Below, one piece after another: positions 44,279 to 51,305 of a stretch of DNA of 51,305 nt. The notes beneath the pieces were generated by a model. That model saw only the letters and a program-made list of their open reading frames with translations. It was not told the origin of the DNA and made no database searches. The stretch lies in assembly GCA_028279545.1 (NCBI GenBank), contig JANQNN010000002.1:1-51305 (forward strand), given 5' to 3'. A program made the position numbers and the translations under genes. Source of the stretch: Nitrosopumilaceae archaeon (GTDB taxonomy: Archaea > Thermoproteota > Nitrososphaeria > Nitrososphaerales > Nitrosopumilaceae). Positions within the stretch are counted from its first letter, which is position 1, and every line of letters begins with the position of its first letter.

Positions 44279-45343
44279 ATGCAAAAAAATGGTTTAGAGT
44301 ACTCTAACATTTCTCCAACAGAGTGGTTCTTACTGCATCAATTTCTTTATGATTTAAAAAAAATAAATTCTAATTGTCTCTCTGTCTATTATCAATATGG
44401 AAAAGAAAAAGAAATTATTTCTTTATTAAAAGAGAGAAAGAGAACTCCACAATTTGAAAAAATAGAATCAATAATTGAAAAAAAAATTAAAGACCTTTAC
44501 AAAAATCATTCTTCAGCCGGAAAATTTGCTAAAACATTTTGTATTTTTGGATGGTTAAAAAATGAAAAAGTAAAAATCAATCATATAGGAACCTCAAAGA
44601 AATTACCTTTTATCTATATGGCAAGTAAAAAACCATACACCAAACCCTTTCGAGATGTTCTAAAAACAAATTTTGAGGTATTGCTTGTTGTTATTGATCA
44701 AAAATCAGCAAGGATTCAAAAATTCAATGGAAGTCAACTAGTTCAAGAAATTAAAATTAAAATCCATCTGCAAGGACGGCATAAAAAAGGCGGACAAAGC
44801 CAAGGTAGATTCCTTAGAGCAAGACAAACCAAAATTCATGTTTTTTTTAAAAAAGTAGCAAACAAAGTCAAATTAATGGGTTCTAATTCTGAGTTAATAC
44901 TTTTAGGAGGAATTGGATCGGCGAAAACAGAATTTTTTGATTATCTTGATACCGAAATGATAAAAAAATGTCGTTTTGTTGAAAATCTAAATTCTTCTAC
45001 TTCATTAGATGATATCCACAAAAAATTAATTTATCATTTATACCAATATAGAAAAAAATATGTTTCAGAAATTATTGAAAAATATGAGAATCTAGTAAAG
45101 GAAGGTCTAACAGCAAAAAGAAATGATATTATTTTCAAAGCCTTGGAAAAAGGTGCTGTAGACACACTAATTGTTTCTGCAGATTATCACACCAATTTTC
45201 AATTTAAAAAAATAATCAAAATGTTAGAAATGGCACAACATACCTCTGCTAAAATAGAGTTTGCTACCTCTCCTAAAATTATCAAGAAACTTCACATTGA
45301 TAATTCAGTTTTAGCCATCCTACGATACCGATTTAATTCCTAA
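44279..45343 (+). CDS. eRF1-family protein with GGQ motif but no NIKS motif (VLRF1-like)
   Basis: The 354-residue protein has GRHKKGGQSQGRFLRARQ, with GGQ at 171-173, the peptidyl-tRNA hydrolysis motif of archaeal/eukaryotic release factors. The N-terminal part lacks the stop-codon-reading NIKS loop, and the whole is shorter than the usual 400-plus-residue aRF1. This pattern fits the Vms1-like/VLRF1 group, thought to release nascent chains from stalled ribosomes. It is not the main release factor. A C-terminal eRF1 domain-3-like region (ALEKGAVDTLIVSADYH) is present. Confidence 0.7.
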   Translation: MQKNGLEYSNISPTEWFLLHQFLYDLKKINSNCLSVYYQYGKEKEIISLLKERKRTPQFEKIESIIEKKIKDLYKNHSSAGKFAKTFCIFGWLKNEKVKINHIGTSKKLPFIYMASKKPYTKPFRDVLKTNFEVLLVVIDQKSARIQKFNGSQLVQEIKIKIHLQGRHKKGGQSQGRFLRARQTKIHVFFKKVANKVKLMGSNSELILLGGIGSAKTEFFDYLDTEMIKKCRFVENLNSSTSLDDIHKKLIYHLYQYRKKYVSEIIEKYENLVKEGLTAKRNDIIFKALEKGAVDTLIVSADYHTNFQFKKIIKMLEMAQHTSAKIEFATSPKIIKKLHIDNSVLAILRYRFNS

Positions 45344-47013: not shown

Positions 47014-47113
47014 ATAAAATCCTGATGTGTTTTTTCTACTACATTTTTTATTTAATTCTAAAATTTTCTAAAATAACTTATATCTTACAACCTGGATTAG
47101 AAATAAGAACAAA

Positions 47114-47524
47114 ATGACTACCCTAAAAATTATTGACATAGAGGGAATCGGCCCTGCATATGCAGAAAAACTTGAATCAATTGGAATTAATAATTCTGAT
47201 AATTTACTGGAACAAGGAAAAACTCCTGATGGCCGAAAAGACCTTGTAGAAAAGACTGGGATATCTTCAAAATTAATTATGGAGTGGGTAAATCTCTGTG
47301 ATTTAATTAGGATAAAAGGTGTTGGGGAAGAATACTCTGATCTTCTTGAAGAGGCGGGGGTGGATACGGTTGTTGAACTTGCAACCCGGAATGCGGAGAA
47401 TCTGCACAAAAAAATGCTAGAGGTAAATGAAGAAAAAAATTTGGTCCGAAGTCCACCTACTATTGATCAAGTAACCGCTTGGGTGGCAGAAGCCAAAACT
47501 CTTCCAAGAGGAATCGAATACTAA
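47114..47524 (+). CDS. DUF4332-like helix-hairpin-helix protein (first paralog)
   Basis: The 136-residue protein has two helix-hairpin-helix-like elements (IEGIGPAYAEKLESIG near residue 9 and IKGVGEEYSDLLEEAGVDTV near 68), a non-specific DNA-binding motif. It closely resembles the protein starting at 50700 over nearly its whole length, so the two are duplicates. No catalytic residues recognised. It may bind DNA or serve as a protein adaptor. The ATG at 47114 lies close to the divergent PLP gene. Confidence 0.8.
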   Translation: MTTLKIIDIEGIGPAYAEKLESIGINNSDNLLEQGKTPDGRKDLVEKTGISSKLIMEWVNLCDLIRIKGVGEEYSDLLEEAGVDTVVELATRNAENLHKKMLEVNEEKNLVRSPPTIDQVTAWVAEAKTLPRGIEY

Positions 47525-47646
47525 TTCTCAAATTTTTCCCTGTATTTTTTTATTAAAAAATTAAAGACATGCTCTCAAAAAATATGAAATCATCATTTTA
47601 GATAATGTTAGAAAGGATTTTATTTTGATTGGAATGAGGTTTATCA

Positions 47647-47844
47647 ATGGTTTTAAAAGTAATCGAACTTGTGGGTTCATCTTCTCAAAGCTGGGAAGAA
47701 GCTACAAAAGACGCAGTAAGCAAGGCACAAGAAACTGTAAAAGAAATCAAAGGTGTTGACCTAATTGCACAAACAGCCGTTGTAAAAGATGGTAAAATTA
47801 CTGAATATCGTGCCAATGTCAAAATTGGATTTGTTGTAGAATAA
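47647..47844 (+). CDS. Dodecin (flavin-binding)
   Basis: The 65-residue protein resembles dodecins, dodecameric stores of FAD, FMN or riboflavin: VLKVIELVGSSSQSWEEATKDA, then a helix and KITEYRANVKIGFVVE. The conserved Trp35 of flavin dodecins aligns near the SWEEA element. It is a single gene. The neighbouring gene at 47976 on the same strand is 131 bp away. Confidence 0.88.
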   Translation: MVLKVIELVGSSSQSWEEATKDAVSKAQETVKEIKGVDLIAQTAVVKDGKITEYRANVKIGFVVE

Positions 47845-47975
47845 ATCTACCCATATTCTATTTTTCTTTAAATGGATTGTATTTACTATCATTTTTTATT
47901 TTAAATATTCAATTTTTTTTTGGGAAATTTCTTTAAAAAATAAGACTTTTAGCCTAAATCTAATCGAAATAGTAT

Positions 47976-50357
47976 GTGGAGATATATGAAAAACTTGGTG
48001 AGTTTTTTCTAGGTAAACATTACAATTTATCAAAGAAAGTAGAAGAGGAATTTCCATTACTTTATGATGCAAAAAATCTTACAACACATGCAGTTTGCGT
48101 TGGAATGACTGGCAGCGGAAAAACGGGTCTTTGTATTACTTTAATGGAAGAAGCCATTTTAGATAAAATTCCTATTATCATTATTGATCCAAAGGGAGAC
48201 TTGGGAAACATGCTTCTAACATTTCCCAATCTTCGTGCAGAAAACTTCCGTCCATGGATTAACGAAGATGATGCCAGAAGGAAAAAAATTACTCCAGAAG
48301 AATTTGCAAAAATGCAAGCACAGATGTGGAAAAATGGTCTTGCAAGCTATGGACAAAAACCAGAAAGAATAAAAAATTTAAAAAATTCAGCAGAATTTGT
48401 TATTTACACGCCAGGAAGCCAAATGGGAGTCCCAATCTCAATACTATCTTCTTTTTCTGCTCCTTCAGAGGAAATCATAAAAGAACCAGACCTTTTTCGA
48501 GATAGAATTTCTACGACTGCCACTAGTCTTCTTGAACTTTTGGGAATTAATGCAGATCCGGTTCAAAGTAGGGAACATATTCTACTTTCTACTTTATTTG
48601 ATCATTTATGGCGAAAAAGAATCGAGGTGGACTTGGGAACAATAATTCAATCAATTCAAAATCCCCCATTTCAAAAAGTAGGATTCATGCAAATTGAAAC
48701 CTTCTTTCCAGAAAAGGATCGTCTCAAGTTTGCTTTACAAATAAATAATTTACTTGCTGCGCCTGGGTTTCAAGGTTGGCTTACTGGACAACCACTTGAT
48801 ATTGATCAAATTTTTTACACTCCACAAGGAAAACCACGAGTGGCCATTTTCTCTATTTCCCACCTACCTGAAACAGAAAGAATGTTTTTTGTTTCCTTAT
48901 TGCTTAACCAAATTCTAAGCTGGATGCGTACTCGCTCAGGCACTTCAAGCTTAAGGGCATTACTCTACATTGATGAAATTTTTGGATATATGCCCCCAGT
49001 TTCTAAACCTTCATCCAAGAAACCCCTACTAACTTTACTTAAACAAGCAAGAGCATACGGGTTAGGATTAGTCCTTGCAACTCAAAACCCAGCCGATTTG
49101 GATTACAAGGGACTTTCCAACACAGGAACTTGGTTTATTGGACGACTCCAAACTCAGCGTGATAAAGAGCGTATGCTTGATGGATTAGAAGGAATCTCTA
49201 ATGGGAAAAATTTCAATAGAGACGCGATAGATAAAACCATTTCAAGTTTAGACAAGAGAGTTTTTCTTCTTCATAATGTTCACCAATCAGAGCCAACAAT
49301 TTTTCATACTAGATGGGCAATGTCTTATCTTCGTGGGCCACTCACTCGCAACCAAATACAAGTTTTAATGAAAAACAAAAAAAATATTTCAGTTTTAGAA
49401 TCAAAAAAAACTAGTTCTACGCCAAAACCATCTGAAAATTTCCAATTAACATTACCCTCTTACCCAATTCTTCCTCCAGGCATTCCACAATTTTTTGTTT
49501 TTGACAAAGATTCCTCATATAATTTTCAAGCCACGGTCTTAGGAATTGCTACAATTCATTATCAAAATCCAAAAACAAAGAAAAAAGCGCATACTGAAAA
49601 AGTTTATTCCTTGGTTTATTTGGATGAGGATCTTCTAGATGTAGACTGGGAAGATGCAGAAGATGTTTTAATAAAAGAAAGTAAACTAAGAAAAAGAGTT
49701 CCAAAAAATGGAAGATTTACTACCCTACCTGACCAAGCTACAAAGGCTAGGAGTTTTTCTAAATGGAAAAGGGAATTTAAAAACCATCTTTATCGAAATA
49801 AAGGAATAGAATACTTTGAAAGTAAAAATTTCAAAATTACCTCAAAACCATTGGAAAGTGAACGTGATTTTAGAATTAGGTTAGGAGAAATTGCAAGAGA
49901 AAAAAGAGATTATGAATCAGAAAAACTCCGTAAAAAATACAAAACAAAAACTGATTCTCTGTTAGAACAACTTAGAAAAGCCAAACAGCGGATAGAAAAA
50001 GAAAAAGAACAATCTAAAGGGCGTAAATTGCAAACGGCAATATCCATTGGAGCATCACTTCTATCTGCTTTTTCAGGTAGTGGTGGCCTAAACATGTCAA
50101 CTTTGAGTAGAGCTACTACTGCAGTTAGCAGTGCGGCACGGCAAGGAAAGGAATATGGCGATATTAATCGTGCAGGAGAAACAGCTGATGCTATTATTGA
50201 AAAAATTGATGCAGTAAAAAGTGAACTGCAACAAGAAATAGATAAACTTGAGGAACGATTTGATCACTTATCTGAAGAATTAATTGTAAAGGAAATTAAA
50301 CCAAGAAAATCTGATATTCAAATTAAAACTGTGGCTTTAGTATGGATATCTGAATAG
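47976..50357 (+). CDS. HerA/FtsK-like ATPase with C-terminal coiled coil
   Basis: The 793-residue protein starts at GTG. The N-terminal P-loop GMTGSGKT is at 43-50, an IIDPKGDLG segment follows, and the Walker B region LLYIDEIFGYMPP is near 330-340, with TQNPADLDYKGLSN further on. This is the HerA/VirB4/TraG fold of DNA translocases. A proline-rich linker, an extra domain (about 500-640), a long coiled coil and a Gly/Ser-rich hydrophobic stretch (about 686-710) follow. There is no NurA nuclease nearby, so it is not the canonical HerA-NurA pair. Confidence 0.78.
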   Translation: MEIYEKLGEFFLGKHYNLSKKVEEEFPLLYDAKNLTTHAVCVGMTGSGKTGLCITLMEEAILDKIPIIIIDPKGDLGNMLLTFPNLRAENFRPWINEDDARRKKITPEEFAKMQAQMWKNGLASYGQKPERIKNLKNSAEFVIYTPGSQMGVPISILSSFSAPSEEIIKEPDLFRDRISTTATSLLELLGINADPVQSREHILLSTLFDHLWRKRIEVDLGTIIQSIQNPPFQKVGFMQIETFFPEKDRLKFALQINNLLAAPGFQGWLTGQPLDIDQIFYTPQGKPRVAIFSISHLPETERMFFVSLLLNQILSWMRTRSGTSSLRALLYIDEIFGYMPPVSKPSSKKPLLTLLKQARAYGLGLVLATQNPADLDYKGLSNTGTWFIGRLQTQRDKERMLDGLEGISNGKNFNRDAIDKTISSLDKRVFLLHNVHQSEPTIFHTRWAMSYLRGPLTRNQIQVLMKNKKNISVLESKKTSSTPKPSENFQLTLPSYPILPPGIPQFFVFDKDSSYNFQATVLGIATIHYQNPKTKKKAHTEKVYSLVYLDEDLLDVDWEDAEDVLIKESKLRKRVPKNGRFTTLPDQATKARSFSKWKREFKNHLYRNKGIEYFESKNFKITSKPLESERDFRIRLGEIAREKRDYESEKLRKKYKTKTDSLLEQLRKAKQRIEKEKEQSKGRKLQTAISIGASLLSAFSGSGGLNMSTLSRATTAVSSAARQGKEYGDINRAGETADAIIEKIDAVKSELQQEIDKLEERFDHLSEELIVKEIKPRKSDIQIKTVALVWISE

Positions 50358-50445
50358 CTCCCTAGATTCTTAAATCACTACAAGCAACTTTATTATTTTT
50401 TATTCTTGTTTGTAAAAAAATCCAAGAAAAAAACAGATCTATTAT

Positions 50446-50574
50446 ATGGTAAGACAATGTAATGATAGTATGGTAATTCATTGTGAATGTGGGATTTGTC
50501 AACATCAAAATGAACCCGAATGTATTAAAAAAGAATGCCATTGTTGTAGCAATTTTCATTTACGTTCAGGTTGA
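50446..50574 (+). CDS. 42-residue Cys-rich microprotein
   Basis: MVRQCNDSMVIHCECGICQH and then EPECIKKECHCCSNFH hold eight Cys and four His, a dense zinc or cluster-binding pattern. An ATG at 50446 and a TGA at 50572-50574 bound it. It lies between the HerA-like gene and the second HhH gene on the same strand. No family recognised. Confidence 0.6.
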   Translation: MVRQCNDSMVIHCECGICQHQNEPECIKKECHCCSNFHLRSG

Positions 50575-50699
50575 GCCTAATTTTTACTTGTTACTCTTCA
50601 AAAATAAATTTTCTAGAATTTGTCAATAAACTATTTCATTTTTGATATTCAACAGAAACCATTTTAACATGGGTTAATTACGAAGTTTTATTGACAGTA

Positions 50700-51305
50700 T
50701 TGAAGATAATAAAAATAGAAGGAATTGGACCTGCTTACGCAGAAAAATTAAACTCAATTGGAATTAAAACGTCTAATGACCTTTTGAAGCAAGGAAAAAC
50801 CCCTCAAGGAAGAAAAGAACTTTCAAAAAAATCAGGAATATCTGGAGATTTAATTTTAAGATGGGTTAATCTTTCGGATTTAATTAGAATTAAAGGAGTG
50901 GGAGAAGAATATTCAGATCTTCTTGAAGCTGCAGGAGTTGATACTGTAGTTGAAATGGCTACACGAAACGCGGATAACCTTTATGAAAAAATGTTGGAAA
51001 TTAACAACAAAAAGAATCTTGTTCGAAGAACTCCTAAGTTAAAGGATGTAAATTCTTGGGTATCACAAGCAAAAAAATTACCTAGAAAAGTAGAATACTC
51101 TTCAGAGAAGAAATCTCAACCAGAAAATTTTTCTGATCTTGAAGAAAAAATTTCACAGTTAGAAGAAAAAATTGCAAAATTTTCAAATCAGAAAGAAATT
51201 AAACCTGAAGCTAAACCAGCCGAACCAAAACCAAAGCCAGCAGAAACAAAACCTGCAGAACCCAAAAAGGAGACTCTTCCAAAAGGCACTGTGAAAAAAC
51301 CAGCA
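50700..51305 (+). CDS. DUF4332-like helix-hairpin-helix protein (second paralog, 3' truncated)
   Basis: It starts at TTG (50700) and is open to the right edge, 202 codons so far. The first roughly 135 residues match the protein at 47114, with IEGIGPAYAEKLNSIGI and IKGVGEEYSDLLEAAGVDTV. A coiled-coil segment (EEKISQLEEKIAKFSNQKE) follows, then a Lys/Pro/Glu low-complexity tail (KPEAKPAEPKPKPAET) that continues outside. The tail resembles the Pro-rich repeat at the left edge of the window, but shared ancestry is not shown. Confidence 0.8.
   Translation, partial: MKIIKIEGIGPAYAEKLNSIGIKTSNDLLKQGKTPQGRKELSKKSGISGDLILRWVNLSDLIRIKGVGEEYSDLLEAAGVDTVVEMATRNADNLYEKMLEINNKKNLVRRTPKLKDVNSWVSQAKKLPRKVEYSSEKKSQPENFSDLEEKISQLEEKIAKFSNQKEIKPEAKPAEPKPKPAETKPAEPKKETLPKGTVKKPA

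Follow-up and report, generated by a model that had tools for sequence, protein, structure and literature searches.

Near the right-hand end of a 51,305-nucleotide stretch of a Nitrosopumilaceae archaeon (contig JANQNN010000002.1; hereafter the window), a HerA-class ATPase lies among two DUF4332 helix-hairpin-helix (HhH) proteins, a dodecin and a Cys-rich microprotein (Table 1). We read this group as a chromosomal cassette of bacterial origin in which an extra HerA-class hexameric DNA translocase would act with an HhH adaptor in the maintenance of DNA at times of stress, and we put the probability of this reading at roughly 0.45. The family assignments, the predicted fold, the conserved motor residues, the linkage and co-occurrence of the genes, the selection on them and the bacterial ancestry are established, and each is taken up below.

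Table 1. Coordinates of the cassette genes and their upstream elements in the window, and of a small protein found at related loci (locus given before each range).
Feature	Position	Strand	Description
TATA-like box AATAACTTATA	47072..47082	+	Upstream of DUF4332-1; putative promoter
DUF4332-1	47114..47524	+	136 aa, tandem helix-hairpin-helix, pI 4.7; Pfam DUF4332 E=1.1e-42
TATA-like box GATTTTAT	47616..47623	+	Upstream of dodecin; kept in 4/5 relatives; putative promoter
Dodecin	47647..47844	+	65 aa; Pfam Dodecin E=2.8e-23
Promoter-like block ATAAGACTTTTAG	47940..47952	+	Upstream of ATPase; near-identical in 5/5 relatives; putative role
HerA-class ATPase	47976..50357	+	793 aa, GTG start; DUF87/HerA E=1.6e-9
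Cys-rich microprotein	50446..50574	+	42-aa ORF; conserved core from Met at 50470
TATA-like box ATTTTAAC	50661..50668	+	Upstream of DUF4332-2; kept in G005 and G006; putative role
DUF4332-2, 5' part	50691..51305	+	TTG start, runs off window; DUF4332 E=3e-43
LEA/phasin-like protein	L050:1993-2181, L049:8922-9131, L052:408-617, L051:11265-11432

The ATPase is made up of a RecA-type motor (residues ~1-470), a beta domain (~505-616) and a coiled-coil hairpin (629-696 and 715-761). The coiled coil and the Gly-rich hydrophobic segment described in the initial annotation are both real and conserved, but the segment, which forms the hairpin tip (~687-714; poorly ordered, with low model confidence), is only mildly hydrophobic (Kyte-Doolittle ~1.0). 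Across 43 homologs the motor residues are invariant or near-invariant (Walker A GMTGSGKT, DE at 333-334, TQN at 369-371), and the RecA-type motor with Walker A, acidic Walker B and Gln sensor places the protein in the HerA clade of the HerA/FtsK superfamily. The top Foldseek matches of its AF2 model (pLDDT 84) are HerA 4d2i and 9x1m (E ~1e-15). In this model only two strands precede the motor, with Walker A at residue 43, and no HAS-barrel was found either there or by Pfam search. Sequence and model together point to a HerA-class protein that lacks the HAS-barrel, and its C-terminal beta domain and hairpin lie outside every known HerA model.

Comparison with known systems sets the protein apart from each of them. 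Archaeal HerA, the motor of the HerA-NurA complex for resection of double-strand-break ends, has the same RecA-like fold, Walker A, DE and TQN, but the ATPase differs from it in the missing HAS-barrel, in having no adjoining NurA and in possessing the beta domain and hairpin; linked NurA and Mre11-Rad50, as expected of a canonical HerA, are absent from its surroundings. That no NurA is visible, as had been remarked, is true locally, although a separate NurA-HerA-Mre11-Rad50 run lies on contig C37 of the same genome (Rad50 being named from sequence and position, the other three genes from Pfam or position), and its HerA has a HAS-barrel match. Because the genome also holds this canonical operon, the ATPase is an extra HerA; the profile match between the two is limited to ~120 residues. 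YjgR of Escherichia coli K-12 (DUF853, PF05872, HerA clade) likewise has Walker A near its N terminus and is matched by hhalign in the motor half over 185 columns, but it is 500 aa long, the match ends with that half and nothing aligns with the C-terminal extension of the ATPase. Membership of YjgR/DUF853 was rejected, PF05872 giving 19.4 bits over residues 27-77 only against a cut-off of 22. The motor core also resembles those of SIR2-HerA, DUF4297-HerA and MADS mad8, from which the ATPase differs in its C terminus and in the lack of an effector partner and a HAS-barrel, the HerA_antiphage model giving 28 bits against an equivalog cut-off of 800. Similarity to TraD, CedB and IcmO is weak and lies in the motor core, with a CedB equivalog score of 35 against a cut-off of 700. 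The libraries searched contain no named function for the ATPase family, and a literature search found no paper on it and a mention of DUF4332 in a figure legend.

The initial annotation placed five genes on one strand, and all five ORFs are present there, all on the forward strand. Intergenic spacing is roughly 90-130 bp, and alignments of the upstream regions of relatives reveal a conserved TATA-like block 20-40 nt 5' of the start, one per cassette gene; for DUF4332-1 an alignment of five relatives contains a conserved AATAA-TTATA block ~30-40 nt 5' of the ATG. With a conserved box in front of every one of them, the genes are probably transcribed separately, and the arrangement would be a linkage of single genes, not one tight operon. 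Pairwise dN/dS among relatives is ~0.05-0.23 for all cassette genes (0.04-0.11 for DUF4332-1, and 0.05-0.08 for the Cys-rich microprotein where computable), which indicates purifying selection. Elsewhere in the window an eRF1-domain-2 (baeRF-like) protein (44279-45343), a possible ribosome-rescue or hibernation factor, adjoins a PALP gene. The PALP-family (cysteine-synthase-like) neighbour in G006 (L322, G006:C87:25508-27094) has one in-frame TAA in the aligned stretch.

Both HhH proteins are full-length members of DUF4332 (PF14229; 145.5 and 147.3 bits against a cut-off of 23.2, E ~1e-43), a family without assigned function. The AF2 model (pLDDT 92) is all-helical with two HhH repeats, and its weak local similarity (E >0.2) to the tandem HhH domains of the RadA/Rad51 N terminus, NusA AR2 and BAF supports only a shared HhH superfold. 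The two proteins had been called near-identical; their DUF4332 domains share 71% identity over 136 aa. DUF4332-2 differs further in that its domain (aa 1-136) is fused to a Nitrosopumilaceae-specific coiled-coil, Pro/Lys-rich tail, which is cut by the contig end. The window's final 99 bases (51207-51305) recur without change at the end of contig C24 and at the start of contig C10, as would be expected of a junction in the assembly graph, and the window ends inside DUF4332-2 because this identical repeat broke the assembly. We infer that the gene continues into C10 and encodes ~346 aa, in agreement with an intact full-length homolog of 335 aa in G005 (L053). Contig C36 of the window genome bears the 3' flank of the native tail gene, and the simplest reading of the assembly is that C24-repeat-C36 represents this native gene and C41-repeat-C10 the DUF4332-tail fusion. 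The repeat-induced contig break at a tail common to two genes suggests recent gene conversion or fusion.

Homologs of the tail occur in 17 of 31 genomes, some of which have no DUF4332 and some no ATPase. The earlier idea that a coiled-coil, Pro-rich tail could connect partners is better recast, the tail being a Nitrosopumilaceae protein family that is also present where the ATPase is missing. The native tail protein in relatives (L332:8509-10526, L333:8230-9348, L334:9309-11338, L342:8424-9455) is Nitrosopumilaceae-specific and coiled-coil/KPAE-rich, with a repeated aromatic C-terminal motif; it is sometimes found in tandem, and its locus usually adjoins peroxiredoxin and aquaporin genes.

The dodecin is a full-length member of PF07311 (82.5 bits, residues 2-65) and sits between DUF4332-1 and the ATPase in five of five genomes. 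The 42-residue, eight-Cys protein of the initial annotation is a real ORF, but its conserved form begins at an internal Met and has 34 aa with seven conserved Cys, the eighth (C5 of the 42-aa reading) falling outside; homologs lie 3' of the ATPase in G005, G006 and G009. Further downstream an MscS-like protein follows in G006, and partly in G001, and G006 also has DUF4332-2. Four relatives carry a small amphipathic, LEA/phasin-like repeat protein 3' of the ATPase that is absent from the window (Table 1). Two Nitrosopumilus genomes encode an MscS-type transmembrane protein close to the ATPase, and other archaea do so separately (L050:930-1892, L052:1-312, L183:174-1025).

Full-length orthologs of the ATPase (76-81%) are present in four of nine same-genus relatives, or five of ten genomes once that of the window, itself Nitrosopumilus-like, is included. 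Strong DUF4332 hits coincide genome for genome with the full-length ATPase (5/61 relatives), and both are absent elsewhere in the sampled family. The annotation had proposed that scattered, unlinked genes in relatives would speak against a module; instead, each of the five genomes of the genus with the ATPase has DUF4332, dodecin and ATPase in this order. Their flanks differ in three ways (G000; G001 and G006; G005 and G009), so that the triple is constant across three chromosomal settings; these five Nitrosopumilus cases represent one clade and not five independent events. A check for the same order in several genera of Thaumarchaeota had been proposed; the triple does not extend beyond one genus, and archaeal homologs at a greater distance have neither DUF4332 nor dodecin nearby. 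Comparison with empty sites gave no clean insertion junction, the genes upstream of the PALP neighbour differing among genomes. In another archaeon (G159:C2:15557-15997) an ATPase fragment with an internal TAG is probably a decayed copy.

Bacterial and archaeal genomes were scanned for relatives of the ATPase, which gave at least 576 stretches, and the best 79 of these outside Nitrosopumilus align over nearly the full length at 46-52% identity. The family is large, spanning about ten bacterial phyla and some archaea. In a tree of 133 proteins the Nitrosopumilus clade branches deep within the bacteria, with no sister resolved, and the other archaeal homologs are placed separately. This nesting in a bacterial family, at ~50% identity over the full length, supports acquisition of the Nitrosopumilus ATPase from bacteria; naming a donor was set aside, given the lack of a resolved sister. 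No ATPase was found among 50,697 phage records, and 72,556 plasmid records contain only two weak partial matches. An origin from a phage or plasmid was rejected on these counts. Five viral contigs give convincing matches (33-49%); one viral-labelled contig (L136, IMGVR_UViG_3300035698_017915) encodes a relative at 49% over residues 7-464 and may be host contamination.

In bacteria, DUF4332 is the commonest Pfam family among the 92 immediate-neighbour proteins of ATPase homologs, and it recurs in several phyla. It adjoins the ATPase in five of 79 loci (L081, L086, L087, L100, L116) and lies ~3 kb away in L104; it is absent beside the ATPase in the other 74, and is thus not obligatory there. Strong stand-alone DUF4332 proteins are encoded in 12 of 50 bacterial genomes with the ATPase and lie near an ATPase gene in seven, a count that includes L104 and a divergent second copy in L198. 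Linkage changes state at least six times on the ATPase tree. Among 201 Chloroflexota genomes the two co-occur in 15, against 3.75 expected (Fisher 1.7e-8, uncorrected for ancestry), and are adjacent in only one; shared ancestry may contribute to this excess. In Gemmatimonadota (n=121), two of the three DUF4332 genomes have the ATPase, adjacent in both. An adjacency was also seen out of sample, in G395. Together with the order kept in five Nitrosopumilus genomes, the rank of DUF4332 among bacterial neighbours bears out the association of HhH protein and ATPase that the annotation proposed. UvrA, UPF0114 and DUF486 were also considered as neighbours and were discounted as apparent lineage synteny, mainly in Nitrospira.

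How might such a cassette work? The ATPase would form a ring, probably hexameric, on double-stranded DNA and move the DNA by ATP hydrolysis. Its beta domain and hairpin could serve as docking parts in place of the HAS-barrel, and the hairpin tip may contact a partner or a membrane. The HhH protein would either grip DNA, as HhH motifs are expected to, or dock on the ring as a loading adaptor; the acidity of DUF4332-1 (pI 4.7) does not favour direct DNA binding. In Nitrosopumilus this partner appears to have been duplicated, with one copy fused to the native disordered tail protein. The dodecin and Cys-rich microprotein here, and the LEA/phasin-like and MscS-like proteins in relatives, would fit DNA maintenance at times of stress. 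This stress setting is suggestive for the Nitrosopumilus cassette and is not established for the ATPase family as a whole. Among the first 79 loci, a handful of bacteria have MscL, MscS, BON-LysM or DUF937 genes close to the ATPase, but these appear in none of 33 further loci, and an osmotic-stress cassette as a family-wide rule was therefore dropped.

The same genes could instead belong to a stress regulon, answering one shared signal (osmotic, redox or starvation) with no complex between ATPase and HhH protein. The separate TATA-like boxes, at ~90-130 bp spacing, keep this explanation alive, and the dodecin, LEA/phasin-like and MscS-like genes that join the cassette in relatives agree with it. 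So do two bacterial arrangements: in KSB1 a DUF4332-BON/LysM-DUF937 run lies ~3 kb from the ATPase on the opposite strand, and a Persicobacter plasmid (L344:5992-6877, NZ_AP025295.1) carries DUF4332 followed by DUF937, with a Crp/Fnr regulator before them, without the ATPase. Out of sample, the stress genes no longer accompanied the ATPase, whereas DUF4332 adjoined it once again, and the DUF4332-ATPase pairing, found in several phyla, is more specific than that of any other stress gene; co-regulation alone is a serious if somewhat doubtful contender. Most bacterial family members are not beside DUF4332, as would be expected if the ATPase were an independent, housekeeping-type translocase with neighbours of no functional consequence, but the repeated independent linkage, the co-occurrence and the conservation of the triple across three contexts make this quite improbable.

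The initial annotation had also considered defence and a conjugation-like module. An anti-phage system in the style of SIR2-HerA or DUF4297-HerA, with the motor paired to an unrecognised effector, would agree with the patchy distribution across several phyla, the HerA defence structures among the Foldseek matches and the partial matches to the PADLOC mad8 and HerA models in 43 of 43 homologs. These PADLOC and NCBIfam matches cover the motor core only, far below equivalog cut-offs, and no SIR2, DUF4297 or nuclease effector adjoins the ATPase in the Nitrosopumilus loci or appears in the top 25 Pfam families, by frequency, of its immediate neighbours in bacteria, nor is a NADase among the frequent neighbours. 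With no HAS-barrel match for effector docking, a small acidic HhH partner devoid of catalytic residues and strong purifying selection, defence is improbable. Transfer of DNA by conjugation or a mobile element is very improbable: the weak likeness to TraD, CedB and IcmO and the three chromosomal sites stand against that low CedB score, the lack of relaxase, pilus or T4SS genes in the Nitrosopumilus loci and the absence from phage records and near-absence from plasmid records. As the annotation had noted, no mobile-element hallmark was found.

Recurrence in several unrelated bacteria suggests a two-part DNA-handling machine rather than virus defence or conjugation. More broadly, and more tentatively than the cassette reading itself, some environmental bacteria may share a widespread machine in which a HerA-type ring with a coiled-coil arm and no HAS-barrel works with a tandem-HhH DUF4332 subunit, and which Nitrosopumilus acquired and rewired by fusing a second HhH copy to an archaeal disordered tail. 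The recurrent link provides a concrete candidate partner for an ATPase family without a named function, and DUF4332, a domain of unknown function, gains a testable role through it. The host is an ammonia-oxidising archaeon of the ocean with a bacterial-type gene set, and the tail fusion suggests how this abundant marine group adapted an acquired bacterial module.
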